Origin: Bacteroidota bacterium
Lineage (GTDB): Bacteria; Bacteroidota; Rhodothermia; Balneolales; HLUCCA01
Direction: 5' to 3'
Assembly: GCA_020832235.1 (NCBI GenBank)
Contig: JAFIEZ010000017.1
Location: 1-64,000, forward strand
DNA: 64,000 bases
Shown here piece after piece: positions 1 to 59,144 of the stretch; the first letter of the stretch is position 1; the number at the start of each line of letters is the position of its first letter. Below the pieces are notes generated by a model. The model saw nothing but the letters and a program-made list of their open reading frames with translations, did not search any database and was not told where the DNA came from. The position numbers and the translations under genes were made by a program.

Positions 1-11
1 TGATAAGGTGA
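1..11 (+). CDS. 3' end of a third T9SS-sorted secreted paralogue (partial)
   Basis: The first eleven bases read as the final codons L-I-R-stop. The DNA that follows (to about 250) matches, base for base over long stretches, the DNA just after the two complete secreted paralogues at 2526-3602 and 4759-5868, which also end in L-T-L-I-R. The window therefore opens at the very end of another member of the same family. Nothing can be said of its body. Confidence 0.7.
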
Positions 12-250
12 CGCAAACCTGAAAAAACCAGGAAACTTACCCTGATCAAGTGAGGTGAACTTGGATATACCCACAAACCTACCCTGATAAGGTCACGCTT
101 ACTTCTCAAACCGAACCATCCTCTCTGGCACACTATTGAACATGTGCTACCCAAACTCCATTTGAAATAACCTCCGCAAACATGGTATGCCTTCAAGCAA
201 ATCGACTACTCAGCTAGCGTTGAACGATATGGAGCATAATATTTAGTTAT
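1..250 (+). repeat. Downstream conserved element, copy 1
   Basis: About 250 bp of non-coding DNA repeated after each member of the secreted family (other copies about 3582-3800 and 5848-6060). It begins with tandem copies of the gene's own last codons: the terminal codons at 1-14, a degenerate copy at about 33-56, and a third at 75-98. A run shared by all copies follows (around 110-240: a 'cgaaccatc' block, then 'ctccatttgaaataacct', then 'catggt'). A toxin-antitoxin-like pair begins about 90 bp after it ends, as after the other two copies. Confidence 0.8.
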
Positions 251-338
251 TTGTTTAAAGATGCAAGCTAAAGAAATTTAGTCTCATTTGTTGCGAATGC
301 ACAGAATATGTATTATGAGTATATATATAGATACTCAA

Positions 339-575
339 ATGAATAAAACCCTTCTCAATAGAATTACGCGTAACGCTGAAATCTGCCATGGCAGACCAAC
401 CATACGTGGACTTAGGTATCCTGTGGACATGATTTTAGATCTAATGGCCTCTGGAATGACCCACCAAGAGATTCTTGTCGATTACCCTGATTTGCAAGAA
501 GAGGATCTTTTGGCTTGTTTATACTTCGCGGCTAAAATCACACATTCAAAGTCCGCTTTTAAAATTGCTCTATGA
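339..575 (+). CDS. DUF433 family antitoxin
   Basis: A 78-residue protein of the DUF433 family, small winged-helix-like proteins that usually pair with DUF5615 PIN-like toxins. The family core C-H-G-R-P-T-I-R-G (residues 16-24) and the following Y-P-V are present. The C-terminal half holds the G-M-T-x-x-E-I-L-x-D-Y-P-D-L helix pair typical of the family. I chose the ATG at 339 because it gives the usual family length; an in-frame ATG at 288 would add 17 residues with no family match. Its last four bases overlap the start of the next gene (ATGA), so the two are probably translationally coupled. The role as antitoxin is inferred from family and neighbour. Confidence 0.8.
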   Translation: MNKTLLNRITRNAEICHGRPTIRGLRYPVDMILDLMASGMTHQEILVDYPDLQEEDLLACLYFAAKITHSKSAFKIAL

Positions 576-925
576 AAGTACTTGTAGATGCTCAATTGCC
601 GAAAAAGTTGGCAAACCTACTTGCACTTAACTCCATAGATTCCATTCACACATTGGATTTGCCCGAACAAAATCGCACATCCGACAGTCGAATTAGCCAA
701 ATTGCAGATGAACAGGGAAGAATTGTAATCACAAAAGATAGCGATTTTCTGGATGGTTATATTTTGAATGGAAAGCCAAAATACATTTTAATCGTTACAG
801 TTGGGAACGTGAAAAATGCGGCTTTACTTGCTATTTTCGAAAAGAATATTGGCACATTAAAGCGTCTATTTAGACACCATAAAGTTATCGAGCTTACTAA
901 CGATGAGATTGTGGTCCATTTTTAA
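572..925 (+). CDS. DUF5615 PIN-like toxin
   Basis: A 117-residue DUF5615 (PIN-like, Mut7-C related) protein, the standard partner of DUF433. The N-terminal strand carries the conserved aspartate of V-D-A-Q-L-P (D6), and the I-T-K-D-S-D-F motif (residues 53-59) supplies two more acidic residues of a presumed metal site. Proteins of this fold are predicted ribonucleases; activity here is inferred. It starts inside the stop of the DUF433 gene. About 120 bp after its stop lies a long imperfect inverted repeat resembling an integron attC site, so the pair may be a mobile cassette. Confidence 0.8.
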   Translation: MKVLVDAQLPKKLANLLALNSIDSIHTLDLPEQNRTSDSRISQIADEQGRIVITKDSDFLDGYILNGKPKYILIVTVGNVKNAALLAIFEKNIGTLKRLFRHHKVIELTNDEIVVHF

Positions 926-1044
926 CCTACAACAGTAGATCAGTTCTTTGAGAGTCATCATAATATATATCGTTAATACTGGTCTCTAGAATAGTAGGTT
1001 CTTATTTTTAAATCATTCTTGGTAACTGATTGCTACGCTCGACT

Positions 1045-1155
1045 CGCTAACAACGGTTTCTACTTCGTGGCTTTCAGCTCGTGCTGACAGGTGCTTGTTT
1101 CGATACTTTAGCAGAGTTGGCATCCCCTGCAGTACAAACCGAAAGCCGTTATGCG
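1045..1155 (+). repeat. attC-like recombination site 1
   Basis: An imperfect inverted repeat of about 110 bp with integron attC architecture. The left end has a GCTAAC core (1046-1051) followed by AACGGTTTC. The right end reads GAAAGCCGTT and then GTTATGC (1148-1154). AACGG-TTTC pairs with GAAAGCCGTT except for one unpaired extra base, as in the extrahelical bases of attC sites. An inner arm CGGTTTCTACT also pairs with AGTACAAACCG. It follows the DUF433/DUF5615 pair at the distance expected of a cassette. No integrase gene is in the window, so the call rests on structure alone. Confidence 0.5.
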
Positions 1156-1178
1156 ACACGATTCGAGACCACTAATAC

Positions 1179-1556
1179 TTACTCATCCGGCAATTCAGAT
1201 AATTTAATTCGAGTATAGGCACCTGACTTTTTATCCTCTGGGTGTGGTTCAATCCCTAAAATTGTAATTTCCATACGGTTTGGACCATATGCCCAGTATA
1301 AACGACGTGCAGTTTTTCCTTGATCCAAATACGATTGCCATATTTTCATGTCATATTTCTTGGACAGTGGCTTAATTTCATGGGTTTTCAAACCGGGGTG
1401 TTTGGGATTTGCACTTAAATTCTGGATGGCCTTACCAAAACGGGTAAACAACTCCAATTCATCAGAGTTTAATGCATCAGACCTTTTCCTTTCCAGCAAA
1501 TCTTGCCAAAACGCTTCCATTTCCGGAATACCCATTCGAATAGTATAGGTAGGCAT
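1179..1556 (-). CDS. RelE/ParE-like toxin
   Basis: A 125-residue basic protein whose C-terminal half resembles the RelE superfamily: a strand rich in basic and aromatic residues (T-A-R-R-L-Y-W-A-Y-G) followed by I-T-I-L-G-I-E-P-H-P-E-D-K. The N-terminal half is helical and longer than in minimal RelE proteins, closer to larger HigB/ParE-like relatives. It lies directly downstream of an 85-residue acidic-tailed partner: that gene's stop codon abuts this gene's ATG. The pair runs antisense to its neighbours and sits between two attC-like sites, a common arrangement for toxin-antitoxin cassettes that carry their own promoter. The family call is by resemblance, not a firm match. Confidence 0.6.
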   Translation of the reverse strand: MPTYTIRMGIPEMEAFWQDLLERKRSDALNSDELELFTRFGKAIQNLSANPKHPGLKTHEIKPLSKKYDMKIWQSYLDQGKTARRLYWAYGPNRMEITILGIEPHPEDKKSGAYTRIKLSELPDE

Positions 1557-1814
1557 TTAGTCCAGCAATTTGTCTAATTCATCCAGATCCACAGCTTTGG
1601 ACGCTTTACCCTTTTTCAAGTTAGCAATAGATTGGTCAATCGTGGCTAACGTTTTTGCCGAGATTTCGTCCGGGTGTACTAAAACTCGCGGACTTAATTC
1701 GATGGTTCCATCATCTTTCTCGCGTACACGATAAAACATCGTTTTAGCTCCACGAAGGGTAATTCGCTTTTTGGCATCTAAGCGAGCGTCATATTCTTTG
1801 ATTGATTGTGCCAT
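1557..1814 (-). CDS. Putative antitoxin of the RelE-like pair
   Basis: An 85-residue protein. Its N-terminal part (A-Q-S-I-K-E-Y-D-A-R-L-D-A-K-K-R-I-T-L) looks like a short DNA-binding strand region of an AbrB/MazE or ribbon-helix-helix type. The C-terminal part is acidic (V-D-L-D-E-L-D-K-L-L-D), as expected for an antitoxin tail that wraps a toxin. It is the first gene of a two-gene minus-strand operon with the RelE-like gene at 1179-1556. I do not recognise a named family. The upstream DNA (1815-1920) contains 'atagccataagtgggatatcccacaatgaatatggctat', which holds the palindrome TGGGATATCCCA, a plausible operator. Confidence 0.6.
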   Translation of the reverse strand: MAQSIKEYDARLDAKKRITLRGAKTMFYRVREKDDGTIELSPRVLVHPDEISAKTLATIDQSIANLKKGKASKAVDLDELDKLLD

Positions 1815-1867
1815 GATAAATTGCTTGGAATGTAGTGTTTACAGTTGCAATATAGCCATAAGTGGGA

Positions 1868-1879
1868 TATCCCACAATG
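1868..1879. promoter_or_regulatory. Palindrome upstream of the RelE-like operon
   Basis: A perfect 12-bp palindrome TGGGATATCCCA lies about 55-65 bp upstream of the antitoxin start, flanked by an outer inverted pair (ATAGCCAT ... ATGGCTAT). Autoregulated toxin-antitoxin operons commonly have such operators; that role is inferred. Confidence 0.4.
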
Positions 1880-1936
1880 AATATGGCTATACTATCGTGA
1901 ATATATTATAGCCAGTAAAGCAAACATTTAAGTGTG

Positions 1937-2028
1937 GCATAACAAGGCGCTCCATGCTGACCGGTGGAAGTTTGGATGGTTTTGGTTAGATTCGAATACC
2001 CGGTAGCATAAACGCTGAGCCGTTACAG
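1937..2028 (+). repeat. attC-like recombination site 2
   Basis: The left end GCATAACAAGGCGCTCC (from 1937) is very close to the 5' side of many chromosomal-integron attC sites. Its first seven bases are the exact reverse complement of the right core GTTATGC of the site at 1148-1154. The right half reads GGTAGCAT ... CGCTGAGCCGTTAC (to 2026). ATGCTGACCGG on the left pairs with CCGGTAGCAT on the right with one unpaired base. Together with site 1 it brackets an 0.8 kb cassette holding the antisense toxin-antitoxin pair. Confidence 0.55.
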
Positions 2029-2085
2029 TGCAGTAGGTTACCCTAAAAACGAACAGAGGTAATTAATCCGTTCTTTTACACTCAT

Positions 2086-2163
2086 TTTTATAACGAGAGT
2101 AATTTTGCTCAATGTTTACCCATATCATTAAAACGAAGGTAAAGATTACACTCGTTATTAAAA
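2086..2163. repeat. Long inverted repeat in intergenic region
   Basis: Arms at 2086-2103 and 2145-2163 (TAACGAGAGTAAT against ATTACACTCGTTA) pair with two differences over about 18 bp, around a 41-base loop. A second, perfect hairpin (CCGTTAG-ttc-CTAACGG) lies at 2202-2218 with no following T-run. The stretch 1815-2525 has no convincing gene; it holds the palindrome, the attC-like site, these hairpins and the promoter region of the next gene. Function unknown. Confidence 0.6.
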
Positions 2164-2410
2164 CCATGTTTAGAGCAGATACCCCTTACAACGAACTCCC
2201 CCCGTTAGTTCCTAACGGAGATCTTGAAACGCAGCTTGTCCGTAGATTGTAACGGATGTGCCCCCCTCACAATAGCGCAATTGGCACTAACTATAGCCAT
2301 TACATTACATTCCTTTAGATGATACACAGCGTCGTTTTTGGTCGAAGTGTATAGAAATTTTGGAATACGTATCGACATCATTGTGATTCCGGCCAATTCA
2401 GATTAGATTC

Positions 2411-2525
2411 ACCCATCAAATCATGTATATTTTTGTTTAGTGCAATTTTAACTTGTCGGAAACCTTTTTTTTTATAGACTTATAGAACGACGGATTTCTC
2501 CCCCTTTTACTAATCAGCGCACCTC
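2411..2525 (+). repeat. Upstream conserved element, copy A
   Basis: About 115 bp before the ATG of the secreted paralogue, nearly identical to 4640-4758 before the second paralogue and, in its first half, to 6790-6870 before the subtilase gene. Shared landmarks are 'aaatcat', 'gtgcaatt', 'aacttgtcgg' and a T-run followed by 'atagactta'. Confidence 0.8.
2453..2482 (+). promoter_or_regulatory. Bacteroidota-type -33/-7 promoter, copy A
   Basis: TTG (2453-2455), 19 bases, then TAGACTTA (2475-2482), close to the Bacteroidota consensus TTG-N19-TAnnTTTG. The same two boxes with the same 19-base spacing occur at 4682-4711 before the paralogous gene, despite changes nearby. Transcription would start some 35-40 bp before the ATG at 2526. 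Confidence 0.5.
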
Positions 2526-3602
2526 ATGACTTCCCTGAAACGATCTTCCCTATTACTGGCAATAATTGTTGCCTTCATATGCATCCATAACAGCAACGTT
2601 TACGCCCAGTATTACGACCTATCTGTTGGTACCGAACGTTTTTTTGATGAAGATTCCTTTTCTGATGCCAGAATAAGAATTGATATAGGCGAAAATAACA
2701 CACGTGCCATCGAGAGGGTTATTGATGAAGTGGTAGTGGACGGAGTTACATGGGCTATCGTTGAGTGGACGAAGTGGACTCAAATTGTGCAACCATCCGG
2801 TACACACCTCATAATCAGTTCAGATACACTTTATTATCGAATGGATGGTTCAATTTTATACGAATACTCAAACGGTGCTGAAATACCGGTTTTCGATTTC
2901 CACATCGAACTCGGCGATTCCTTATTTACTCGTTTTCAGCCTTTTATGTCTGACAACCTGCTTCAACAGTTTCAGGAATTAGGGGATCGTGGAGGCGTAC
3001 TACTAGCTGACACCACCATTACGTTTCCCGGAGGGAGTCAGCTCCGTATGTTATGGGGAGATGGCACAGCGATAGATTGGTATCAAATACCGTCTGCGAA
3101 GGTATTTGTTGAAGAAATTTTGATCGAAAGGGAGGGATGGTTATACCCATACAATTCAGACAAGTCCGATGTGTATAATCCTTTTATGGCTTTTTTTCAT
3201 GTTGAAGATTTTGGCAGTCTTTACTCGGTATTCAATCATCGAGAAATGTTTATGTCAGGATTTAAATCACTGGATGGAAGAGCATTTGGTCGTTCTTATG
3301 AGGTTCCCACTTCTCTGAATGAAGTAAATCAGATTCCGGTAGCCCATATTTTGCATCAAAACTACCCCAATCCGTTTAATCCAACTACGCAGATTCGGTT
3401 CTCCTTACCGATGGAATCAGCGGTGGAGCTGGATGTGTACACAATCACTGGTCAGCATGTAGCTAACTTGGTGAGTGAAGTCCGCCCGGCCGGAACCCAT
3501 CAGGTTACCTTCGATGCTTCTGACCTGGCCTCGGGCGTGTACATGTACCGCATCCGCGCGGGGAATTACATCGAGACCCGCAAACTGACCTTGATTAGGT
3601 GA
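2526..3602 (+). CDS. T9SS-sorted secreted protein, paralogue A
   Basis: 358 residues. It has a signal peptide (K-R near the start, hydrophobic run, cleavage probably after V-Y-A at about residue 27), then a body of roughly 245 residues predicted to be mostly beta strand and matching no family I recognise. The C-terminal type IX secretion sorting domain of about 80 residues starts at Q-N-Y-P-N-P-F-N-P and ends K-L-T-L-I-R. The mature protein should be exported by T9SS and anchored or released at the surface. The N-terminal about 40 residues and the sorting domain are nearly identical to paralogue B (4759-5868), but the body between them is strongly diverged. The gene lies between conserved upstream and downstream DNA elements. 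Confidence 0.85.
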   Translation: MTSLKRSSLLLAIIVAFICIHNSNVYAQYYDLSVGTERFFDEDSFSDARIRIDIGENNTRAIERVIDEVVVDGVTWAIVEWTKWTQIVQPSGTHLIISSDTLYYRMDGSILYEYSNGAEIPVFDFHIELGDSLFTRFQPFMSDNLLQQFQELGDRGGVLLADTTITFPGGSQLRMLWGDGTAIDWYQIPSAKVFVEEILIEREGWLYPYNSDKSDVYNPFMAFFHVEDFGSLYSVFNHREMFMSGFKSLDGRAFGRSYEVPTSLNEVNQIPVAHILHQNYPNPFNPTTQIRFSLPMESAVELDVYTITGQHVANLVSEVRPAGTHQVTFDASDLASGVYMYRIRAGNYIETRKLTLIR

Positions 3603-3800
3603 TGCAATCTTGGATAAACCAATAAACTGACCTTGATAAGGTGATGCTCATTTCTGAAACCGAACCATCTATTCCGGCACATTATTGATTGTGTGTTACC
3701 GTAACTCCATTTGAAATAACCTCCACAAACATGGTGTACCTTCAAATAAATCGCCTACCAAGCTAGAGTCAAACGATTTGGAGCATAACTTTTAGTTAAT
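3582..3800 (+). repeat. Downstream conserved element, copy 2
   Basis: Second copy of the element found at 1-250 and 5848-6060. It includes two 24-bp copies of the gene tail: 3582-3605, spanning the real stop codon, and 3624-3647, 22-23 of 24 bases the same. A shared non-coding stretch follows to about 3800. The MNT/HEPN pair starts 80 bp further on. Confidence 0.85.
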
Positions 3801-3879
3801 GGCACTTTACACTTGTACCAGCCTGAAAGTTAAATTCCCGTTTCTTTTGCTATATTGATTGTAATGAAAAATTAGAATC

Positions 3880-4161
3880 ATGAATGACCTCGGACACATA
3901 AAAAAGAAAATCAGGCCAATCCTCAAAAAGTACGGCATCAAAAAAGCCGGTATCTTCGGCTCATCTGCACGAGGTGAGGCTGTAGTGAATGATTTGGACC
4001 TGCTTGTCAAAATCGATAAAAAAATCAGCCTTTTGGAGTTTATTGGTATTCAGCAGGAATTAGAGGATAAATTGGGAATGAAGGTGGATCTTGTTGAATA
4101 TGACGCAATCAAGCCTGCTTTAAAGGATGATATCCTGAGGGAAGAAGAACCTGTGATATGA
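3880..4161 (+). CDS. mntA: MNT-domain nucleotidyltransferase, antitoxin of MNT/HEPN pair
   Basis: A 93-residue minimal nucleotidyltransferase. The fold's signature is present: G-S-S-A-R-G-E-A (about residues 27-34), then D-L-D-L-L-V, the two metal-binding aspartates, and later K-V-D-L-V-E-Y. The stretch between G-S and D-x-D is one residue shorter than the usual G-S-x10-D-x-D. MntA-type proteins neutralise their HEPN partner by adding AMP to it; that is family knowledge, not shown here. Its stop overlaps the ATG of the HEPN gene by four bases. Confidence 0.85.
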   Translation: MNDLGHIKKKIRPILKKYGIKKAGIFGSSARGEAVVNDLDLLVKIDKKISLLEFIGIQQELEDKLGMKVDLVEYDAIKPALKDDILREEEPVI

Positions 4162-4502
4162 GCAAGAGAAAACCTGACGTCTATCTGCAGGATATTTTAG
4201 AGAGTATTGATCACATCCAAAGGTTTCTTGATGGCGTGTCTGAAGAGAATTTTTATGAAAATGTAGAGAAGCAAGATGCCGTTCTGCGCAGGCTTGAAAT
4301 TATCGGGGAAGCCGTTAAACATCTGCCTGAAGAAATTCGCGAGAAACACCCCGATATTCCCTGGCGACAGATTGCTGGCATGAGAGATATCATTATTCAT
4401 GAATATTTTGGCGTGACTTTAGGCATGATTTGGGTAGTTGCCACAGAAGATATTCATGATCTTAAAGCAAAAGTTGAAGAGATCATCGAATCAAACCAAT
4501 AA
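4158..4502 (+). CDS. hepT: HEPN (DUF86/HepT) ribonuclease toxin
   Basis: A 114-residue all-alpha HepT protein. The catalytic R-x4-H motif is intact as R-D-I-I-I-H-E-Y near residues 77-84, preceded by the family sequences R-L-E-I-I-G-E-A and I-P-W-R-Q-I-A-G-M. HEPN proteins of this kind are tRNA/mRNA-cleaving toxins controlled by an adjacent MNT protein, which here overlaps it upstream. The pair sits between the downstream element of one secreted paralogue and the upstream element of the next. Confidence 0.88.
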   Translation: MSKRKPDVYLQDILESIDHIQRFLDGVSEENFYENVEKQDAVLRRLEIIGEAVKHLPEEIREKHPDIPWRQIAGMRDIIIHEYFGVTLGMIWVVATEDIHDLKAKVEEIIESNQ

Positions 4503-4596
4503 TCGGATCGGCCATTAACCAGTGTTTCCTGCTGATAGGTATATGTTTCTTGCCGAACATTCATGATGATTGTCCGGCCGCAGAAACACCAAACCC

Positions 4597-4758
4597 TTAC
4601 ACGGTCAGCCAACGCTCCAGATAGGTATTATCTTTGAGATACCACCGAATCATATATATTGTTGTTAAGTGCAATTCTAACTTGTCGGAAATCTTTTTTT
4701 TTATAGACTTATAAAACGACAGATTTCGCCCGCCCCCTTTTACTAATCATCGCACCTC
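4597..4758 (+). repeat. Upstream conserved element, copy B
   Basis: Matches 2411-2525 and 6752-6870. It starts at 'ttacacggtcagccaacg' (also present at 6753) and runs to the ATG of paralogue B. Just before it, GTGTTTCCTGC (4521-4531) pairs with GCAGAAACAC (4581-4590) with one unpaired base. Confidence 0.8.
4682..4711 (+). promoter_or_regulatory. Bacteroidota-type -33/-7 promoter, copy B
   Basis: TTG (4682-4684), 19 bases, TAGACTTA (4704-4711): same boxes and spacing as before paralogue A. Confidence 0.5.
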
Positions 4759-5868
4759 ATGACTTCACTGAAACGAACCTCCCTGCTACTGGCAATGATT
4801 GTTGCCTTCACAAGCATCCATAACAGCAATTTATACGCCCAGTATTACGACCTCAGCGTGGGTACCGAACGGCATTTTTATAACTGTTACGGAGTTACAT
4901 CAAATTGTGATCTGCCACTACCGGGAGAACAAACGGTCGGTTTAGAGCGGGTTACCGACGAAATCACCGTAGATGGAAAGCAATGGGCGGTAGTAACATT
5001 CATGTTATGGCCAGATTTTTTTGAAAAAAAACCATCCTATTTTGTAGAAGAAAATGCATCAATCACAGAGAATCTATACCGAATGGAGGGATCTGTACTG
5101 ATTGAGTTTGTAGATGGAAATGAAGTCCCCATTTTTGACTTTGAAATCGATCCCAATCAGCCACTTTCCGAGCATTTCGCACCATTCCCTCGCGCGAATC
5201 CCTTTGATCCAACTCCTTATAATGCCGAGAACCTTGGGAGGGATTTCGAGCTGTCGTCGCAGGTATTATTAGACACCACAATCGCTTTCCCTGATATGTC
5301 ACAGCGCCGGATTATCTGGGCCGATAATCCACTGGAACCTGGTTTTGACGTCCCGGAGCATCTGATTGGGACGGTTTTTGTGAACGAAATTCTTTTTGAG
5401 GACATGGGGACGCTGAAAATCAGACAAACCTCGAATTACACGCCCTATCAACCCTATTTTTACGTTCAGGATACAGGTGTGATGTTTACGCCTATCAACC
5501 ATCGGGGCTACATCATGGTAGGCTACACATCTTCTGATGGTAAATCGATTGGCTGGCAAGTACCAGTGCCAAGTTCTATTGATTTTGGTGGGTCTGAACA
5601 TCCAGATAAAGCTGAGTTGCATCAAAACTACCCCAATCCGTTTAATCCAACTACGCAGATTCGCTTTTCCTTACCGATGGAATCAGCGGTGGAGCTGGAT
5701 GTGTACACAGTCACAGGTCGGCATGTAGCCAACTTGGTGAACGAAGTCCGCCCGGCCGGAACCCATCAGGTTACCTTCGATGCTTCTGACCTGGCCTCGG
5801 GCGTGTATATGTATCGCATCCGCGCGGGGAATTTCATCGAGAACCGCAAACTGACCCTGATAAGGTGA
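4759..5868 (+). CDS. T9SS-sorted secreted protein, paralogue B
   Basis: 369 residues. Signal peptide to about residue 27 (ending L-Y-A), an unrecognised body, and a C-terminal type IX sorting domain (Q-N-Y-P-N-P-F-N-P to K-L-T-L-I-R). Compared with paralogue A, the first 38 residues and last 85 differ at only a few positions, while the middle aligns poorly and differs in length. A few anchors persist (V-T-D-E-x-x-V-D-G, L-L-D-T-T-I-x-F, and an F-N/I-N-H-R element before the sorting domain). The DNA of the 3' block (5617 onward) is almost the same as 3351 onward in paralogue A, and this similarity continues past the stop codon. That pattern suggests recombination or gene conversion between copies. 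Confidence 0.85.
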   Translation: MTSLKRTSLLLAMIVAFTSIHNSNLYAQYYDLSVGTERHFYNCYGVTSNCDLPLPGEQTVGLERVTDEITVDGKQWAVVTFMLWPDFFEKKPSYFVEENASITENLYRMEGSVLIEFVDGNEVPIFDFEIDPNQPLSEHFAPFPRANPFDPTPYNAENLGRDFELSSQVLLDTTIAFPDMSQRRIIWADNPLEPGFDVPEHLIGTVFVNEILFEDMGTLKIRQTSNYTPYQPYFYVQDTGVMFTPINHRGYIMVGYTSSDGKSIGWQVPVPSSIDFGGSEHPDKAELHQNYPNPFNPTTQIRFSLPMESAVELDVYTVTGRHVANLVNEVRPAGTHQVTFDASDLASGVYMYRIRAGNFIENRKLTLIR

Positions 5869-6060
5869 CGCAAACTTGGGTAAATCCACAAACTGATCTT
5901 GATAAGGTCACGCTTACTTCTCAAACCGAACCATCCACTCTGGCACACTATTGAACTTTTCTTACCCAAACTCCATTTGAAATAACCTTCGAAAACATGG
6001 TATGCTTTCAAATAAATCGACTAATCAGGTTGAGTCAACCGATTTGGAACATCTCATTTA
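5848..6060 (+). repeat. Downstream conserved element, copy 3
   Basis: Third copy. It contains a 24-bp gene-tail unit at 5848-5871 spanning the stop codon and a second at 5890-5913, then the shared non-coding run. Similarity fades at about 6060, and the RelB/YafQ pair starts at 6153. Confidence 0.85.
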
Positions 6061-6108
6061 AAAACACATCAGATTTGATACTAATCATTCGAATTTGCCG
6101 TTGTATTT

Positions 6109-6126
6109 GTAGCACACATGTGCTAC
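6109..6126. promoter_or_regulatory. Inverted-repeat operator before RelB/YafQ
   Basis: GTAGCACA-ca-TGTGCTAC, a perfect 8-bp inverted repeat with a 2-bp centre, 27 bp before the RelB ATG. RelB/DinJ-family ribbon-helix-helix proteins repress their own operons through such sites; assignment is by position. Confidence 0.6.
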
Positions 6127-6152
6127 ATTTTGTTTAACTAATTCCATTTATT

Positions 6153-6416
6153 ATGTCGAACAAAACTACAACGGTACGGGCAAGACTCGAGCCGGACTTG
6201 AAAGAAGAAACCGAATTAATTTTCGAACAACTTGGGTTGAGTACAACCGAAGCAATTCGCATCTTTTTTAAGCAGGTTCAGCTTCAGCAAGGGTTACCTT
6301 TTGACTTAAAACTCCCAAACGAAACCACCAAAAAGGCTATTGCAGAGGCCCAAGCACGAAAGCAATTAAAATCCGTGGATTCTGCACAAGAAGTATTTGA
6401 CGATCTCGACATTTAA
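6153..6416 (+). CDS. RelB/DinJ family antitoxin
   Basis: An 87-residue ribbon-helix-helix antitoxin. The N-terminal strand T-T-V-R-A-R-L-E-P-D-L-K and the following helix (L-S-T-T-E-A-I-R-I-F-F-K-Q-V) are the DinJ/RelB DNA-binding unit, and the common L-P-F-D-L block follows at about residues 52-56. The acidic C-terminus ends V-F-D-D-L-D-I. The last base of its stop is the first base of the YafQ start (TAATG), so translation is likely coupled. An inverted repeat at 6109-6126 is the probable operator. Confidence 0.88.
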   Translation: MSNKTTTVRARLEPDLKEETELIFEQLGLSTTEAIRIFFKQVQLQQGLPFDLKLPNETTKKAIAEAQARKQLKSVDSAQEVFDDLDI

Positions 6417-6685
6417 TGAAAACTATTTCCAGAACAACCCGCTTTGAGAAGGACGTGAAGAAGATGAAAAAGCGGGGGAAGTCGTTTTCAGTTTTTAAGC
6501 AAGTGATTACAAATCTGGCGAATAACGAGATTCTTGAGCCAAAGTTTAAAGATCACAAGTTAGTGGGAAACTATGCCGATACCCGAGAGTCTCACATTGA
6601 GCCGGATTGGCTGCTTATCTACATCAACAACGAAGATGAATTAATGTTGGTCAGGACGGGTACACACGCCGACTTGTTTGGGTAA
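6416..6685 (+). CDS. YafQ family mRNA interferase toxin
   Basis: An 89-residue RelE-superfamily toxin of the YafQ type. It shows the F-E-K-D-V-K-K-M-K-K-R-G start, the D-H-K-L-x-G-N-Y-A-D-T-R-E-S-H-I-E-P-D-W-L-L-I-Y block (about residues 45-69) and the R-T-G-T-H-A-D-L-F end. The histidines and aspartate of the known YafQ active site lie in these blocks. Together with its antitoxin it fills the spacer between a downstream element and an upstream element of the secreted-protein array. Confidence 0.88.
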   Translation: MKTISRTTRFEKDVKKMKKRGKSFSVFKQVITNLANNEILEPKFKDHKLVGNYADTRESHIEPDWLLIYINNEDELMLVRTGTHADLFG

Positions 6686-9233: not shown

Positions 9234-9602
9234 ATGAACATTTCAAGAGTACTTCTAGCTTGTGTTGGCATTTTGCTGATTTCGCTGACGCTGCAATCAT
9301 GCACACAAAAAAATGAATCTGCTATGCGTAATGATAGTAACTGGGACAAAATGGATACGGCACTTCGATCTGAACTCCGAAGTAAAATAGAGCAGGAGAG
9401 TGACGATCGTGTAGTCATTTTTGTTGAGGTAAGCGAGAATAGCGATGCATACGCAACCGAACTGGAGTCTATGGGTATACAAGTACAGACACGTACCGGT
9501 ACTATCTGGACGTTACGCGGGAATGCAGCTTTACTGGCTGAAGCATCGTCAAAGGATTACATCAAACGTATGGAGTTAAGCCAACAGCGCCGGGTACCTT
9601 GA
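9234..9602 (+). CDS. Small lipoprotein resembling a subtilase prodomain/inhibitor
   Basis: 122 residues with a lipoprotein signal (hydrophobic run, then L-T-L-Q-S-C, lipidated C23). The rest is a compact domain of about 95 residues. Its order of elements (a strand V-V-I-F-V-E-V, a helix, 'G-I-Q-V-Q-T-R-T-G-T-I-W-T-L', a helix, then 'Y-I-K-R-M-E-L') parallels the prodomain of the protease just upstream ('V-H-V-F-I-G', 'L-Q-I-T-G-S-Y-G-D-I-I-S-A-R-V', 'S-V-Q-R-V-E-A'). Stand-alone I9-type domains inhibit or help fold subtilases. I infer that this lipoprotein acts on the protease encoded two bases before it, on the periplasmic side of a membrane. The likeness is by eye and identity is low. Confidence 0.6.
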   Translation: MNISRVLLACVGILLISLTLQSCTQKNESAMRNDSNWDKMDTALRSELRSKIEQESDDRVVIFVEVSENSDAYATELESMGIQVQTRTGTIWTLRGNAALLAEASSKDYIKRMELSQQRRVP

Positions 9603-9625
9603 TATGCCGGTTACCTTGATATGCT
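9593..9625 (+). repeat. Tandem copy of gene tail spanning the stop codon
   Basis: GGTACCTTGATATGCC (9593-9608, containing the stop TGA at 9600-9602) is followed at once by GGTTACCTTGATATGCT (9609-9625). The second copy keeps the TGA. The remaining gap to 9843 shows no gene. Confidence 0.75.
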
Positions 9626-9843: not shown

Positions 9844-10644
9844 ATGCCTGTCAGCTATAAAACCTTACTGCTCTATGCCACAAGCGGGTGCCTGCTGGGA
9901 CTGTCCATATTGCCTGCTGGCACAGTGCCTTTGTCGCCCCTGGCCTGGGTAGCTTTCATACCTATGTTTTTTGCTTTCAAAGAACCGGTGTCGCGAGGGA
10001 CTCATCTTCTGGGTGCCTACTTCTTCAGCATAATCAAAGTATTTCTCACACTCTTCTCATTTGTAACGGTTTATGCCCTGCCCGGCCTGATTCTAATTTT
10101 TCTGGGAGGACTCGTTTACAGTATCCCCTTGTGGATATACCACCTGCTGCAGTGCCGCATCGGATGGGATAAATCGTTGTTTGTTTTACCCTTCTTATGG
10201 ACGGCCTACATCACGCACATATCAGACGGATTGCTGGCCCTGCCTATCCTGAGTTTTTCGCTTAGTCAGGCCGCATTACCCTGGCTTATTCAATACATCG
10301 ATATCACCGGAAACACCGCCATCATATTCTGGCTGGTGTTGCTGAATGTACTGTTTACGAAATCCATCCACTCGTGGTATCAGCACAGAAAGACCGTCAA
10401 AAGTACATCCCACGAGAGCGTATATCTTGCAAAACGGGTAAGCCTCATTGTTCTTTGTATGTTCCTCCCTCCGCTGCTGTATGCCGTTTACACCGTTCAG
10501 GTTCTGCCACAACACTTTACCGGGCAAATTCAGGTAGGACTTGTGCAACCGGGGTTCACTGCAGATGAAACGTCAGGCGAGGATTTTGGCACAGAACTAT
10601 TCTACAGTCAAATTGCGCTGAGCGACTCCATGACAACCCGTTAA
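9844..10644 (+). pseudogene. lnt: Apolipoprotein N-acyltransferase, N-terminal part, interrupted by TAA
   Basis: 266 codons covering the membrane domain of Lnt (about seven hydrophobic segments; opening G-L-L-x-x-L-S-I-L-P-A-G, P-L-S-P-L-A-W-V-A-F-I-P). Lnt adds the third acyl chain to lipoproteins in the inner membrane. The frame stops at TAA 10642-10644 but continues without shift as E-V-D-L-V-V-W-S-E-S-A-M-P, which is the family's nitrilase-domain start with the catalytic glutamate. The break is thus a single nonsense codon, explicable as CAA to TAA or AAA to TAA. With the second stop at 11320 the whole gene spans 9844-11502. A sequencing error is possible at either site. Confidence 0.75.
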
Positions 10645-10677
10645 GAGGTAGATCTTGTTGTATGGTCTGAGAGTGCC

Positions 10678-11322
10678 ATGCCTTTCGTACTTCTTGAGAG
10701 TCCAGACGCCGTTCGGGCTGTATTCGGAAGTGTACTGCGCTGGGGCACCCCTATGCTAACCGGTACCTTCGACAGAGCGTTTTACGCCAGCGACGAGGAG
10801 ATCCCGAACCTGCAACGGTATTTAGGGCGGAATTACGCCCTGTACAACTCCGCCATGATGATTACCCCTCAGCTGGCATGGATGCACCTTCGCGAAAACC
10901 TACCCCTCAGTTCGGTGAGGATGTACCACAAAACACATCTGATGCCTTTTACTGAGTATGTTCCCTTGTCAGACAGGTTTCCTCGTTTTTCTTACGCCTC
11001 GGTTTTTAACGACGAATTCAGCCATTTCAGTAAAGGCAATGCATTGGAGTACCTCAGCTTTGCTGCTCGCAACCAGGTCGTTCACAGAGTGAGTCCTATT
11101 ATCTGCTGGGATTTGCTTTCTGCGAGAAGCTCCAGACTCGCTGTAGGTACCGGGGCACAATTCATTGCGGCATTGACGAACGAAAGTGCTTTAGGAGACC
11201 GCTTCCGTGTTACCGTACATCAGATGGAATCGTACAGCCGGTTTCGTAGCATCGAATCGAGAAGATCCATTGCAAAGGCCGCTCTCACCGGATACAGCCT
11301 GTTTACCAATCCGTTTGGCTAA
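10678..11322 (+). pseudogene. lnt: Apolipoprotein N-acyltransferase, C-terminal nitrilase part, ended early by a second TAA
   Basis: Continues the Lnt frame after the first stop; the ATG at 10678 is an internal methionine, not a true start. It carries the catalytic lysine context Y-H-K-T-H-L-M-P-F-T-E-Y-V-P and the catalytic cysteine in I-I-C-W-D, where most relatives have C-Y-E. A second in-frame TAA (11320-11322) follows N-P-F-G, yet the frame goes on with V-Y-G-R-V-P-W-W and a final hydrophobic segment L-L-N-L-L-G-L-A-V-A-L to a TAG at 11500-11502, the normal Lnt C-terminus. Two nonsense codons in an otherwise intact frame mean recent inactivation. Other genes here end in TAA, so reassignment is not the explanation. 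Confidence 0.75.
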
Positions 11323-16675: not shown

Positions 16676-17968
16676 TTAATCCGGTACAATACGCAGCAAT
16701 CGACCGTTCGATTCGTCGGTGAGCACATACAAATATCCGTCGGGACCTTCGCGCACATCACGCACCCGGGCTCCGATCGTGAGTTTTTCCTCGCCGACAA
16801 CCGAGGTTTCATTGAGGATGATACGGCGAACCTCGCCACTTGCCAAACCACCGCTGAAAAGATTCCCCTGCCACTGCGGGAACGCCTCCCCATGATAAAC
16901 GGTGAGTCCGCTGGGAGCCTGAGCGGGCGTCCAGACCAGGTGTGGATCTACCATGCCCGCTTTGGATGTCCGACGCGTAATGCGGGTATAATGATATTCC
17001 CGGCTATACGTCACTTCCGGCCAGCCGTAGTTGCCTCCGGCAACCAGCAGATTAAGTTCGTCTCCACCCCGCGCGCCGTGTTCGTTAGCCCACACATGGC
17101 CCGTCACCGGATCAACAGTGAGACCCTGAATATTACGATGTCCGTAGGTCCAGATTTCGGGGAGAGCGCTTAATTCCGGAGTGCTTCCTGCATTTGTTGT
17201 CGATTCAGCCGACGGACCACTGCCCGCAATAACGGCCCCGGATGCCTGCTGCGATGCATCCCCAGCTTCAGACTGCGGCAAGTTGGTTGAACCACTAATT
17301 AGAGGAACCAATAGGTTGTCACCCTCCGATGCAGCAAGGACTGGTCGACCATCTTCGGTGAGGCGCACCACCGTGCCCAGGTGGTTATCGTTGTTTTGAG
17401 CCTGTTCGCGTATCCATCCCCCATCGAAACGAATGTAGTTCCCCCCGTCCGCAACGCTCACGAGCATGGTCGTGTCGGGAAGCCAGGCCATGCGCGAGCC
17501 AAAATGTTGGTTTCCGCTCTTGGCCACGTTCGTTTCAAACAGCACCTGAACATCGCTCAACGCCCCATCCGAAAACATCCCACGGGCAAGCGTGGTTCGA
17601 TTAGCATCATCGTTGCCGGCGGCATAGGTGAGGTAAACGAATCCGTTTTCGGCAAAATCAGGATGGATGGTGACATCCAGCAGCCCGGCTTGTCCATCAG
17701 CAAACACAGCCGGCACACCGCTCACAGGTTCTCGCTGCAACTCTCCATCACGCACCCATCGAAGCCTGCCCGGACGTTCGGTAATGAGCATATCGGTGTC
17801 ATTCAGCCAAACCACCGCCCACGGATGTTCAAGTCCGTCGAGCACCGTTTCCACCTGCCAGCCCGAGGCTTCGGGAACATCACCCGACACGCGTGCCGGT
17901 CCCTCGGGAGCTTTGCAGGCCGTAATGGTTAACAAGAGAATGAACAAGGCGGTATACAGGATTTTCAT
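16676..17968 (-). CDS. PQQ-dependent sugar dehydrogenase-like lipoprotein
   Basis: 430 residues from the ATG at 17968, chosen because it places a lipoprotein signal at the start (L-L-L-T-I-T-A-C, C18). The remainder is the glucose/sorbosone dehydrogenase six-bladed propeller: L-E-H-P-W-A-V-V-W-L near the start, R-P-G-R-L-R-W-V, H-P-D-F-A-E-N-G-F-V-Y, the catalytic-histidine region N-Q-H-F-G-S-R-M, Y-G-H-R-N-I-Q-G-L and N-E-H-G-A-R-G-G-D-E-L-N. Relatives oxidise aldoses in the periplasm using PQQ. A low-complexity insert rich in S, A and G (about 45 residues) interrupts the propeller between N-L-L-V-P-L and L-P-E-I-W-T-Y-G-H-R, a likely surface loop. Confidence 0.88.
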   Translation of the reverse strand: MKILYTALFILLLTITACKAPEGPARVSGDVPEASGWQVETVLDGLEHPWAVVWLNDTDMLITERPGRLRWVRDGELQREPVSGVPAVFADGQAGLLDVTIHPDFAENGFVYLTYAAGNDDANRTTLARGMFSDGALSDVQVLFETNVAKSGNQHFGSRMAWLPDTTMLVSVADGGNYIRFDGGWIREQAQNNDNHLGTVVRLTEDGRPVLAASEGDNLLVPLISGSTNLPQSEAGDASQQASGAVIAGSGPSAESTTNAGSTPELSALPEIWTYGHRNIQGLTVDPVTGHVWANEHGARGGDELNLLVAGGNYGWPEVTYSREYHYTRITRRTSKAGMVDPHLVWTPAQAPSGLTVYHGEAFPQWQGNLFSGGLASGEVRRIILNETSVVGEEKLTIGARVRDVREGPDGYLYVLTDESNGRLLRIVPD

Positions 17969-18082
17969 AGGATTGGAGGGGTTTACCATGTCAATTTGAC
18001 TACGTTTACTTCACTAAATTAAAAGAATATATTGCTACGAAGTTAACGTAAAAAACGCACCCATACATTCCACTCCGGAACC

Positions 18083-24330: not shown

Positions 24331-24407
24331 AAGCCTCCTTAAGCGGTCCTTACCAGAGCTTCCTTGTGCGGGCCTTATCAAAACGTCATTATGCGGCCCC
24401 TACCAAA
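24331..24407. repeat. 26-bp degenerate tandem repeats at the 3' end of the kinase gene
   Basis: Units at 24331-24356, 24357-24382 and 24383-24407. Read on the minus strand each has the form 'TGGTA(A/G)GG-CCGC', and the first on that strand contains the kinase gene's own stop codon (TTTGGTAG). The following units carry TGATAAGG and TGGTAAGG at the same place. This is the same kind of stop-spanning duplication seen after several other genes here. Confidence 0.65.
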
Positions 24408-25209
24408 GTGCTCGAAGTGCGCGAAGTACCGAGCCCGTCCATTTCAACGGTCGACCGGAGCGCAGTCCCATAAAAACAATCACTCTGAAGACCACATAAA
24501 TCTTTATGATTCGCGGGATGTAAACGTTGACCGATTGCAGCAGCTGCAGCCATTTCCAGGCCGTCTCTTCCATCGATTTGGGGGACAACGACGGATGTTC
24601 TCCCACCGAAATCGTAAAGAGCAACACATCCTGAAATACCCCCCGCTCAAATCGCGTTCGATGCGGAGTCACATCAATAATCCAAAGTCGCTCATCGGCA
24701 GCCGACCACAGAATGTTGCCCAAATGTAAGTCCCCGTGAAGCACCGGTTCAGCAACATCAACCGAGACCGCTTTTATATTTTCATCCCCCTGATAAGCCG
24801 TAAGGTTGTCGACATCTGCCCCGTCTTGATGCGCCTGAAAATTATCCCGTTTTGAAATTTCAACTCCTTCAGTTTGTTTAGGCGAATGTGGATGCATATC
24901 CGTCTCCTTTGGGGCACCCCCTCCCAAAACCACCGCATACCAGTGCTGAATGCGGTGAATCAATCGATTTAACAGCTCCACATCATGAATTTCCTGCAGA
25001 TTCGGTGCATCCAGTCGGGGGAAGGTAGCCGTGAGCGAATCGATTACCTGCAACGGCTGCAACGTGCGTACCTCGTCATTATCGAAGGCTTTCAACGCCC
25101 GTGTTGCATGCAGACATCGCTGATGCTGCGCCTCTGATGCATAGGTTTTCACAAAGGATGCAGCTCCTTCGAAAACGTTTGCGCCGGAACCGGGGTTAGT
25201 GTATTTCAT
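24400..25209 (-). CDS. APH/choline-kinase-like phosphotransferase
   Basis: 269 residues from the ATG at 25209, chosen because a longer form (to 25344) would run across the start of the divergent epimerase gene and adds nothing family-like. The Brenner motif is V-L-H-G-D-L-H-L-G-N-I-L-W (about residue 155-167), and the metal-binding aspartate lies in W-I-I-D-V-T-P-H-R. The N-lobe is very short, so the protein may be a degenerate or N-terminally trimmed kinase. Substrate unknown; neighbours suggest small-molecule or glycan chemistry. Confidence 0.7.
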   Translation of the reverse strand: MKYTNPGSGANVFEGAASFVKTYASEAQHQRCLHATRALKAFDNDEVRTLQPLQVIDSLTATFPRLDAPNLQEIHDVELLNRLIHRIQHWYAVVLGGGAPKETDMHPHSPKQTEGVEISKRDNFQAHQDGADVDNLTAYQGDENIKAVSVDVAEPVLHGDLHLGNILWSAADERLWIIDVTPHRTRFERGVFQDVLLFTISVGEHPSLSPKSMEETAWKWLQLLQSVNVYIPRIIKIYVVFRVIVFMGLRSGRPLKWTGSVLRALRALW

Positions 25210-25250: not shown

Positions 25251-26369
25251 ATGATGACATCTGCATCCCATAACCGCATTCCATCGATTTTCGTGCTTGG
25301 CGCCAGTGGATTTGTCGGACAACAGGTCTGGAAACTGGGTGCACAGGAACAGGTGACCCTCACGGCACTACGTCGGCGCGGACAGGTTGATGAGACCCTG
25401 GGGAAAGTGATTCAGGGTGATATGGCTTCCTTTGATTGGTCCAGCCTCAGCGCGCAGCCTCCCGATGCGATCATTCACACGGCGCGTATTTCGGGGAGGA
25501 CAGCTCCGGAACGCTACCTGGCCGGATGGCGCGGCTGGCTGGCGAATCGGTCGTTGGAGCGGTGGCGGACCAGCATAAACCACACAAAGGATGATTCACG
25601 GCTACATCTTCCGCATAGCGAAGCGCGGGCAAGCATGAACCACACTGAGAATGATTCACGGCTGCATCTTCCGCATAGCGAAGCGCGGGCAAGCATGAAC
25701 ACCCGTGCAAACCACGCAGATGATGGGGAAAGGCTCTCACAAACGCATAGCGGGGAGCGGCTTCACACCCCTACTCGACTGGTATTTGCATCGGGATCAT
25801 TGGTGTACGGCGATTGCGGAACGACACCGGTTTACGAGTCGAGCCCATTGCATCCGATTGCGTTCCAGCGAAGTTATGTCCGCGCCGAAAAACCCTTCCT
25901 GAAACGCGCGCATCAGTCCGACGCCGCACTGTGCATCGCACGCTTACCGTGGATTTACGGGGCGGGATCGTGGTTTGCCCAGTTTTACATCCGAACAGCC
26001 CGGCGGGATGGATATGTGACCCAGTACGGGTCGGGCAAGCAGCTCATGAGCCTGATTCATGTAGAAGATGCGGCGGGAATGATGCTGTCTTTGGCTACCA
26101 ACACCACCGCTTCGGGAGTCTACAACCTTGTTGGCGGTCCAGCTGTGAGCCACGGGGATTTTTGCCGGCTGGTAGCCCGGGAGCTCGGACTACCCGTGAA
26201 AGAAATGCCCGAAACGCAGGTCTGGTCGAAATTCGGCAAAACTGTGGCGGAGGCCCTTACATTCAGCAGCGATGTGCGCACCGAGCGGGAGGAGTTGCAG
26301 TCCTACATTTTGAAACACCCGAGCCTGGAGACCAGCATTCGCGACGTGATTACAGCGCTGGACCGGTGA
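25251..26369 (+). CDS. NAD-dependent epimerase/dehydratase with tandem-repeat insertion
   Basis: 372 residues of the extended SDR type: G-A-S-G-F-V-G (17-23) binds NAD(P), S-G-S-L-V-Y-G is the catalytic serine region, and Y-V-R-A-E-K holds the catalytic tyrosine and lysine (Y-x3-K). Between the helix after residue 100 and the strand R-L-V-F-A-S-G lies an insert of about 65 residues. It consists of two nearly identical 20-residue repeats (DNA 25572-25691) and a degenerate third. SDR relatives have a short helix there, so the insert is probably a surface loop of recent origin. Substrate unknown, possibly a nucleotide sugar. Confidence 0.8.
   Translation: MMTSASHNRIPSIFVLGASGFVGQQVWKLGAQEQVTLTALRRRGQVDETLGKVIQGDMASFDWSSLSAQPPDAIIHTARISGRTAPERYLAGWRGWLANRSLERWRTSINHTKDDSRLHLPHSEARASMNHTENDSRLHLPHSEARASMNTRANHADDGERLSQTHSGERLHTPTRLVFASGSLVYGDCGTTPVYESSPLHPIAFQRSYVRAEKPFLKRAHQSDAALCIARLPWIYGAGSWFAQFYIRTARRDGYVTQYGSGKQLMSLIHVEDAAGMMLSLATNTTASGVYNLVGGPAVSHGDFCRLVARELGLPVKEMPETQVWSKFGKTVAEALTFSSDVRTEREELQSYILKHPSLETSIRDVITALDR
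25572..25691 (+). repeat. Two in-frame 60-bp tandem repeats inside the epimerase gene
   Basis: Units 25572-25631 and 25632-25691 differ at only a handful of bases. The peptide contains S-R-L-H-L-P-H-S-E-A-R-A in both copies. A third, degraded copy follows to about 25770 (A-D-D-G-E-R-L-S-Q-T-H-S-G-E-R). The length is a multiple of three, so the frame is kept. Confidence 0.9.
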
Positions 26370-26454
26370 AATCAGCATCTATCACGTAACCCTTCGCTTA
26401 AAAAACCGTTCAAGTCGGCCTAGCCGCCACCGGTGAAATCAGAGTCCATTACGT
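26362..26454 (+). repeat. Repeated tail of the epimerase gene
   Basis: ACCGGTGAAATCAG at 26362-26375 contains the epimerase stop TGA (26367-26369) and recurs exactly at 26429-26442. The following 20 bases are also similar (atctatcacgt against gtccattacgt). The second copy ends at the stop of the convergent methyltransferase gene. Confidence 0.6.
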
Positions 26455-27258
26455 TTATCTTCCCTTCACTTTCATCGTATACAGACTATACTCGCCCATG
26501 TTCCAGAACGGCGTACGACTCAAAAAGGCATCGATATTCCACAGTTTTTCGGCGGAGTTTCCGAGTTTTTTGAGCAGGTGTGAGCGGTACCAGGCCGGAT
26601 AAAACAGACTGTAACCGCGACGATATGTTATATCTGCTACCGGCTCAAAGGCTTTATGAATATCGCGGGAGGAATAAGGTCGACTCGGAATTTTCCGGTG
26701 GTCGGAATACCCTCGCCAGCGATTGTTTACCCGCTCGAAGGCTTTATCGAACCTACCGTTTGCCAGCCAAAGCGGAATCTCGGTGAGGTAATATCGATTC
26801 ACAAAGGTAAGTACCAGTGTTGCTCCGGGAGTACACTGCTCTGCAATGTGACGCGCAGCCAGACCAAGGTCTTCCACGGTGTTAAGTCCACCGAAATACA
26901 CATACACCAGATCGAATCGGGTATCGGGAAAGGCCGAAGCCAGCTGCTCCACCGATCCAACCGCGAAGGAGGTGTTCGAAAGGCCGGCCTCCTTCACCTT
27001 TCGACTTGCCAGATGTATCATTTCGGGGGAAACATCGATGGCGGCAATGTGCCGGTCGGGATACGTTTGTGCGAAATACTCCACATCAAATCCCGGTCCG
27101 CAACCGATTTCAAGGGCGCGTGAGAAGGTATGCTGTTCGGTGACGCGACGAAAATCACCACGGATTCGTTGCAAAACGGGATTCACTTCGTATCGTTGCT
27201 CGAAATCACGGGCATCATCGTCGTAATAGGAAGCGACTTCTTTATAATATGTACTCAT
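26455..27258 (-). CDS. Class I SAM-dependent methyltransferase
   Basis: 267 residues from the ATG at 27258 (M-S-T-Y-Y-K-E-V-A-S-Y-Y-D). Motif I is A-L-E-I-G-C-G-P-G-F-D (48-58), the acidic end of strand 2 is A-A-I-D-V-S, and F-D-L-V-Y-V-Y-F-G is the post-motif strand. This is the ubiquinone/menaquinone (UbiE-like) Methyltransf_11/25 type. The C-terminal part (R-P-Y-S-S-R-D-I, Y-R-R-G-Y-S-L-F-Y-P-A-W-Y-R) is specific to a subfamily I cannot name. Convergent with the epimerase gene; methyl acceptor unknown. Confidence 0.85.
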   Translation of the reverse strand: MSTYYKEVASYYDDDARDFEQRYEVNPVLQRIRGDFRRVTEQHTFSRALEIGCGPGFDVEYFAQTYPDRHIAAIDVSPEMIHLASRKVKEAGLSNTSFAVGSVEQLASAFPDTRFDLVYVYFGGLNTVEDLGLAARHIAEQCTPGATLVLTFVNRYYLTEIPLWLANGRFDKAFERVNNRWRGYSDHRKIPSRPYSSRDIHKAFEPVADITYRRGYSLFYPAWYRSHLLKKLGNSAEKLWNIDAFLSRTPFWNMGEYSLYTMKVKGR

Positions 27259-36780: not shown

Positions 36781-36965
36781 AGATTACGATAATGTAAATA
36801 TTCGAAATCTGGCACCACCTAAGGGCTGGCGATTCATTCAAATTACGGTGAGTTCATATTCAAAAGCTGGCACCACCTAAAAGCCGGTGAATCACTCCGA
36901 TTACGATAATGCAATACTCGAATGCTTGCCCGAGGGGATCACCAAGGGGTTGGTGAATCACTCAG
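36781..36965. repeat. Three degenerate tandem repeats of about 60 bp
   Basis: Units of roughly 58-66 bp begin at about 36781, 36839 and 36898. Each runs from 'gattacg' through 'ggcaccacctaa' (degenerate in the third) to 'ggtgaatcactc' or a close variant. Inside each, CACC and GGTG can pair as a small hairpin. The repeats fill the gap 36712-37005 between two minus-strand genes. Confidence 0.75.
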
Positions 36966-47860: not shown

Positions 47861-47899
47861 GGGAGGATGGATTATTGAATAGGATGGATGACCGAATGA

Positions 47900-48601
47900 T
47901 CAGGATTTCATATGGTTGAGGTAGACCTGCTCAAGATCGCTGTGCGATATATCTGCAGCGTTGAGTTCATCCATCAGCTTTCCCCGATTCATGATGCCTA
48001 TGCGCGTTCCGGTTTCTTTGGCGCGAAATAAATCGTGGGTTGCCATCAAAACCGCAGCACCACGGTCCTTCATGTGCTCAAGCAGGCGGGCAAAATCGTT
48101 GCTCGCAGCGGGATCTAGTCCGCTGGTGGGCTCATCCAGCAACAGCACATCCGACGAGCGGGCTATAGCCAGGGCCACGCCCACCTTCTGACGCATACCC
48201 TTGGAGTAGGTCTCTACCCGCTTGTGAATCGCTACGGGTTGAAGTCCGGCCTCGGTTAAATGGGCTTCCTGCTGGGCATTCGTGAGGTTGAGTCCCGACA
48301 AACCACAGAAAAAGCGAAGGTTTTCCGCTCCGGTTAAATTCGGATATAAAGCGAGGTTTTCGGGAATATAGGTGAGCCGTTTTTTGGTTTCGAGGGGGTT
48401 TTCGGTAACCGACATCCCGCCAATCATGGCTTTCCCTGCGCTGGGCGGAAAAACGTTGAGCAACATATTGATGGTGGTGGTTTTTCCGGCACCATTGGCT
48501 CCCAGGAGGCAGTAAATTTCGCCCGACGCAATGGTTAAATTGAGATCGTTCACTGCGGTTTGCCCGTTGAAATGTTTGGTCAGATTGATGGTTTTTAGCA
48601 T
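47900..48601 (-). CDS. ABC transporter ATP-binding protein
   Basis: 233 residues. Walker A L-G-A-N-G-A-G-K-T-T (33-42), signature Y-S-K-G-M-R-Q-K-V-G-V (about 133-143), Walker B V-L-L-L-D-E-P-T-S-G-L-D-P and the switch histidine in M-A-T-H-D. Single ATPase for the two DUF3526 permeases encoded just downstream (39 bp to the next start). Cytoplasmic face of the inner membrane. Confidence 0.92.
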   Translation of the reverse strand: MLKTINLTKHFNGQTAVNDLNLTIASGEIYCLLGANGAGKTTTINMLLNVFPPSAGKAMIGGMSVTENPLETKKRLTYIPENLALYPNLTGAENLRFFCGLSGLNLTNAQQEAHLTEAGLQPVAIHKRVETYSKGMRQKVGVALAIARSSDVLLLDEPTSGLDPAASNDFARLLEHMKDRGAAVLMATHDLFRAKETGTRIGIMNRGKLMDELNAADISHSDLEQVYLNHMKS

Positions 48602-48733
48602 GTCGATGGGGTGTGGTAGAAGTAAGGTTTCTCGATTATTGAGTGTTCAGCTAAGCTGATCCGTTCTCAGTTTAAGCGACCGATTTTAAGAAGGTTTTTC
48701 TTTTCATGGGATGATATTGGTTAATCGTGAATA

Positions 48734-49945: not shown

Positions 49946-50018
49946 ATCTGGGATGTGCTGTGCGTGGTGTTCCTGTTTTTTGCAGCTAAAGGGATTTCAA
50001 ATAAATCCATCTTTTTGA

Positions 50019-50033
50019 TGCAACTTTGTTGCA
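50019..50033. promoter_or_regulatory. TGCAAC-N3-GTTGCA operator 1
   Basis: Perfect palindrome TGCAAC-TTT-GTTGCA between the divergent GTPase gene (start 49945) and the FAD protein gene (start 50065). Its right arm overlaps TTGCAA (50029-50034), which with TATAAT at 50053-50058 could be a -35/-10 pair with 18-bp spacing. A bound repressor would block it. Confidence 0.75.
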
Positions 50034-50057
50034 ATTATAGAACAAACTCCCGTATAA

Positions 50058-50072
50058 TGCAACAATGTTGCA
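50058..50072. promoter_or_regulatory. TGCAAC-N3-GTTGCA operator 2, covering the start codon
   Basis: Perfect palindrome TGCAAC-AAT-GTTGCA, extended by one pair on each side (A50057/T50073). It begins on the last base of TATAAT and contains the ATG at 50065-50067 used as the start of the FAD protein. Confidence 0.75.
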
Positions 50073-54017: not shown

Positions 54018-54056
54018 GGATGTGTTCTATTTATGGTTTTTGAACGGTAGGTGTGT

Positions 54057-56834: not shown

Positions 56835-56884
56835 AAATATGGGTTGCTTTAGGAAAACAAACTTACGTAAGTTACCGCATTAAT

Positions 56885-56899
56885 TGCAACAAAGTTGCA
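56885..56899. promoter_or_regulatory. TGCAAC-N3-GTTGCA operator 3
   Basis: Perfect palindrome TGCAAC-AAA-GTTGCA in the 100-bp divergent region between the TonB receptor (start 56834) and lipoprotein (start 56935) genes. Lies two bases before operator 4. Confidence 0.75.
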
Positions 56900-56901
56900 T
56901 A

Positions 56902-56916
56902 TGCAATTTTGTTGCA
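56902..56916. promoter_or_regulatory. TGCAAT-N3-GTTGCA operator 4
   Basis: Same palindrome with one changed base in the left arm (TGCAAT-TTT-GTTGCA). The centre-to-centre distance to operator 3 is 17 bp, so two dimers could bind nearly the same face of the DNA. Confidence 0.7.
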
Positions 56917-56934
56917 TCAACTAATCTACAAGTC

Positions 56935-59109: not shown

Positions 59110-59144
59110 ATCGTATCATTAAAAATACGACAAGGTACAGCTAA

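Follow-up and report, generated by a model that had tools for sequence, protein, structure and literature searches.

Why should unrelated genes of one bacterial genome be followed by imperfect copies of their own last codons, stop codon included? The window analysed here, a stretch of 64 kb, is the first part of the 105.8-kb contig C5 in a draft genome of 3.38 Mb and 20 contigs. A preliminary description of it had cited seven gene tails of this kind, and had proposed either a genome-wide mutational process or a functional back-up for termination. We therefore set out to establish whether these repeats are real, whether they exceed chance, whether the stop codon is their target and which mechanism may account for them.

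Gene-tail repeats of the window

Of the seven cited repeats, six proved to be tandem and to span the stop of a called gene; their periods are 42, 42, 17, 25, 67 and 56 bp. The seventh (1-98) has no visible gene in front of it, because contig C5 begins within the repeat. These features, together with two further repeats of the window, are as follows.

1-98, plus strand: 42-bp tandem units of an array-gene tail, at the contig edge, with the gene body outside the window
3582-3647, plus strand: 42-bp unit duplicated in tandem over the stop (3600-3602) of gene 2526-3602 (lag 42, score 21.5)
5844-5919, plus strand: 42-bp unit duplicated in tandem over the stop of the paralogue 4759-5868
9589-9624, plus strand: 17-bp unit in 2.1 tandem copies, spanning the stop of a small lipoprotein-like gene (9234-9602)
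24332-24407, minus strand: 25-bp unit in about three copies, from the stop onward, of a phosphotransferase-like gene (24400-25209 or longer)
26362-26454, plus strand: 67-bp duplication across the stop of an NAD-dependent epimerase gene (25251-26369)
62367-62475, minus strand: 56-bp duplication across the stop of an aldehyde dehydrogenase gene (62448-63830)
36798-36905, no strand: 58-bp tandem duplication, wholly intergenic, of the same kind as the tail repeats but without a stop codon
25565-25700, plus strand: 60-bp tandem repeat, 2.3 copies, within the epimerase reading frame, its period a multiple of 3

The phosphotransferase-like gene on the minus strand has a weak APH match. The epimerase array ends at the stop of a convergent methyltransferase gene (26455-27258), and in the aldehyde dehydrogenase array the second copy lacks a stop (TAG to CAG). 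The in-frame 60-bp repeat lies upstream of the part of the epimerase that best matches the Epimerase profile. At 9844-11322, an apolipoprotein N-acyltransferase is apparently split by an in-frame stop into LNT_N and CN_hydrolase pieces in the same frame, and appears to be either a pseudogene or an assembly error.

Some of the genes concerned are related. The first 189 bp of C5 (1-189) match the end of contig C4 with 95.8% identity, and there the array of 1-98 stands behind a gene (C4:12985-14043). The C4 tail is paralogous to both array-gene tails inside the window; all three share a 3' flank of about 200 bp and a 5' flank of about 130-230 bp, and they therefore count as one event, in which one such tail would have been copied together with a paralogous secreted-protein gene. 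Five independent cases are thus left in the window. Both array genes of the window (2526-3602 and 4759-5868) end in a type IX secretion sorting domain (Por_Secre_tail). Small gene pairs resembling toxin-antitoxin systems (DUF433/DUF5615, nucleotidyltransferase/HepT and RelB/YafQ) alternate across 288-6685 with the two secreted-protein paralogues and with the edge repeat (1-98); the flanks of the paralogues are conserved while their middles differ.

Frequency and placement of the duplications

To assess whether such tails exceed chance, we sampled about 1.4 Mb of the 3.4-Mb genome in stretches, with genes called by a frame-specific Markov model over 0.86-1.42 Mb. The comparison of gene tails with downstream DNA against shuffled pairings, run on 1.2 Mb, revealed a real excess. 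When the last 60 bp of 601 genes were compared with the next 150 bp, four matches scored at least 28 against 0.05 expected from shuffled pairings, and three of these four strong matches fall in the window. In a lag-based test in which the repeat must include the stop (score at least 14), 17 of 835 genes were positive against 0.17 expected from shuffled pairs. Order-3 random sequence modelled on intergenic DNA gave one array in 400 kb. A chance origin of the stop-spanning duplications is excluded.

The excess is patchy. Stop-spanning duplications occur at 7 of 70 genes on C5 compared with 0 of 289 on a 400-kb stretch of contig C10, and both departures are significant when the test is limited to genes whose downstream space is 60 bp or longer (Fisher, C5 versus the rest P 5e-5; C10 versus the rest P 0.016). 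In genes with arrays the gap that follows is longer, and GC3 is slightly higher. In the C10 stretch (C10:1-400000, GC 0.439), about 43 kb of DNA between genes contains just two tandem arrays; the figure for contig C11 is 15-17 in about 29 kb. Thus, the proposed genome-wide mutational process stands in so far as a process is at work beyond the shuffled expectation; it is uneven across the genome and, as the placement of the arrays indicates, not centred on stops.

Indeed, the stop codon is not the target of duplication. Tandem-array coverage is 0.1% within gene ends and 1.3% in the last 25 bp of the gene; it reaches 2.6% at 0-25 bp past the stop and about 5% at +50 to +275 bp, while the 50 bp before start codons show 0.3-0.7%. 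Over 1.42 Mb, 17 arrays cross a stop, one crosses a start and 43 are intergenic. We compared these counts with a placement model in which a unit is dropped at random and kept unless it falls wholly inside one gene; the model predicts a share of about 18% crossing a stop and a similar share crossing a start. The observed stop-crossing share is 17 of 60 (P 0.03), or 15 of 58 with paralogues collapsed (P 0.08), that is 26-28% against the predicted 18% or so. Stops are therefore enriched at most about 1.5-fold, and starts are strongly depleted. Within genes, the repeat period is divisible by 3 in all 52 of 52 repeats, compared with 41 of 96 for all other repeats.

Comparison with related genomes

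Among the genomes compared, the nearest relatives include the metagenome-assembled genome HLUCCA01 and, probably, Balneolales PBR18_bin42, both names being assigned from hits and coordinates. Stop-spanning arrays number 1.77 per 100 genes in this genome and 1.03 in HLUCCA01; two members of the order that are less closely related have 0.41 and 0. A 350-kb stretch of E. coli K-12 contained 17 intergenic arrays and no stop-spanning array.

Individual arrays, however, are not shared between orthologues. Behind the GSDH gene, a 41-bp tail array is present in HLUCCA01 but absent from the orthologue in the window (16676-17989), while the lipoprotein gene has an array in the window and a single tail in the HLUCCA01 orthologue. 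A RibD-like gene on contig C8 has an array here and none in HLUCCA01, and an M14 peptidase gene has single tails at two relatives' loci. Array presence thus varies between species of one genus and, judged from these sequence comparisons, the tail arrays are lineage-specific rather than conserved at orthologous genes.

Two blocks of the window, 47898-59180 and 62429-64691 (the latter running on past the window's end), are 94% and 88.6% identical to HLUCCA01, respectively, compared with about 71-80% over most of the contig, and they probably reflect recent inter-species exchange. Between them, 59180-62429 comprises about 3.2 kb including an MCP-type gene, where HLUCCA01 has about 140 bp; HLUCCA01 retains a 178-bp piece of 61569-61746 directly behind its aldehyde dehydrogenase. 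On this alignment the difference is read as an insertion or deletion at the end of the aldehyde dehydrogenase gene.

Tolerated duplication as the probable account, and its rivals

We consider it probable that the gene-tail copies are ordinary short tandem duplications, of about 15-95 bp, that were kept where they did no harm. The copies are adjacent, head-to-tail and at one period, as in duplications of minisatellite type, and their locations follow what a genome would tolerate, being in frame within genes, free between genes and rare at starts. Such duplications would originate through replication slippage or unequal recombination. They would arise everywhere, at a rate that may be high in this genus and that would differ along the chromosome, and selection would then remove those that break a frame or disturb the region before a start, so that the remainder would resemble a habit of copying gene tails. 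A duplication that crosses the stop leaves the gene intact because the first copy keeps the complete end and its stop; since stop-crossing duplications are harmless and start-crossing ones are not, gene ends collect copies of themselves. In this respect the arrays are like the minisatellites or VNTR loci of bacterial intergenic DNA, which also consist of head-to-tail units of tens of bp with locus-specific sequence, are lineage-specific and are in frame when within genes. They differ in the unusual share that crosses a stop codon in this genus.

Three observations count against this account. GC and intergenic length relate only loosely to the regional bias between C5 and C10, a slightly larger fraction of arrays crosses a stop than neutrality predicts, and synonymous differences are somewhat more frequent than simple duplication predicts. 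Among 19 independent pairs of tail and copy there are 58 differences, 32 of which are synonymous in the frame of the gene. With the coding copy under constraint and the second copy free to drift, the model gives 20-25 under most settings (P from below 0.003 to 0.04), and intergenic arrays read in arbitrary frames give 27% synonymous. If both copies had been coding under strong constraint (omega 0-0.1), 39-56 would be expected, and this model is rejected, while weak constraint on both copies (omega 0.3) fits the observed 32 of 58. In this small set, the synonymous bias lies between neutral and fully coding divergence.

Such a bias would be explained if some downstream copies came from another allele or a paralogue of the gene: homologous DNA from outside would have joined just before the old tail and left it behind the new stop. 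A known parallel is found at the attL/attR boundaries of elements that integrate at gene ends, where the old and new gene tails differ mainly at silent positions; in contrast to these displaced tails, the copies described here abut without an element between them and often number more than two. Consistent with displacement, 34 synonymous differences stand against 29 others over about 106 and 332 sites, and silent changes are prominent in an SBP_bac_3-type gene (C11:207032-207964; GGC/GGT, GTG/GTA, CTG/CTC, GAT/GAC, CAA/CAG) and in the RibD-like gene (C8:41895-42524; GTT/GTA, TTT/TTC, ATC/ATT). The M14 peptidase gene (C11:100049-101272) is trailed by two diverged tails, that is, two copies of its C-terminal codons (EVLK.EQ; SISLMREVLKLE) whose differences are mostly silent. 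The probable inter-species exchange in the window is also in keeping with this reading. However, three or more copies at an exact period (39, 41, 44 or 35 bp) occur in many arrays, as expected of tandem expansion, and nonsynonymous changes are too numerous for a purely coding origin under strong constraint. In the DNA-level set, moreover, the upstream homology never reaches more than about 20 codons into the gene, and in the aldehyde dehydrogenase it is the coding copy, not the second, that resembles the relative. We therefore regard displacement as an unlikely source even for some of the copies, and think it doubtful, too, that a share of the gene tails in this genus is trailed by fossil tails of other alleles through repeated recombination with diverged relatives. 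Two further origins were rejected. A purely coding origin of all copies fails in simulation at low dN/dS, and truncated tandem paralogues are not a general source, since a protein-level search behind the genes recovered hardly any pieces of genes apart from tails (eight hits with scores of at least 46, compared with six in shuffled pairs).

No function was found for the copies. The proposal of a back-up for termination holds that a second stop behind the first catches read-through ribosomes, and many copies do include a stop codon, which they share with the fail-safe additional (tandem) stops described elsewhere. Reading frame, lost stops and the distance to the next stop nevertheless all point the other way, and we find this function scarcely credible. 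The period is in frame in only 7 of 17 arrays (5 of 15 with paralogues counted once), and the second stop is mutated in several copies (for example TAG to CAG and TAG to TCG). The next in-frame stop lies at a median of 17 codons in genes with arrays compared with 11 in other genes, so that, unlike fail-safe stops, the copies are enriched neither for in-frame placement nor for nearness of the next stop. Ho and Hurst likewise detected no selection for extra stops in eubacteria (PMC6764699).

The repeats might instead be RNA elements, such as terminators, mRNA stabilisers or protein-binding repeats, selected at the 3' ends of transcripts. Arrays are indeed denser at 3' ends and in convergent gaps (0.33-0.51 per kb) than in divergent gaps (0.15), and the array-gene unit holds a small palindrome (ACCTTGATAAGGT). 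Nevertheless, this too is very unlikely, as the units of different genes have no common sequence and the arrays are not conserved between orthologues. Folding leads us to reject a structured RNA or terminator, as the six arrays folded were no more stable than their shuffles (z -0.42 to +1.15). A motif that seemed to join the lipoprotein tail with the array tails (TTACCTTGATA) was also rejected: this shared motif (TTACCTTGATAWGG, with one mismatch allowed) occurs at five places in 3.4 Mb against three for a reversed control, which gives no family with a shared motif. TAACTGA direct repeats, which are intergenic and also present in some Bacteroidetes, carry the same motif genome-wide and lie mostly upstream of starts (PMC4679880). 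The present arrays resemble these repeats and the REP/BIME elements in lying between genes, but here the unit is particular to each locus and is a copy from the gene at that locus.

To conclude, the gene-tail repeats of this genome form a real pattern with strong statistical backing. They are best read as small tandem duplications that are tolerated, and neither as directed at stops nor as a functional system; their kind is ordinary, their number mildly unusual and their distribution over the genome uneven. They illustrate that a purely tolerated type of mutation can mimic a functional pattern. If gene tails in this genus were instead trailed by fossil tails of other alleles, stop-spanning repeats would record allele replacement in intergenic DNA, and should the synonymous excess be confirmed in further genomes, earlier replacements of alleles could be read from the copies.
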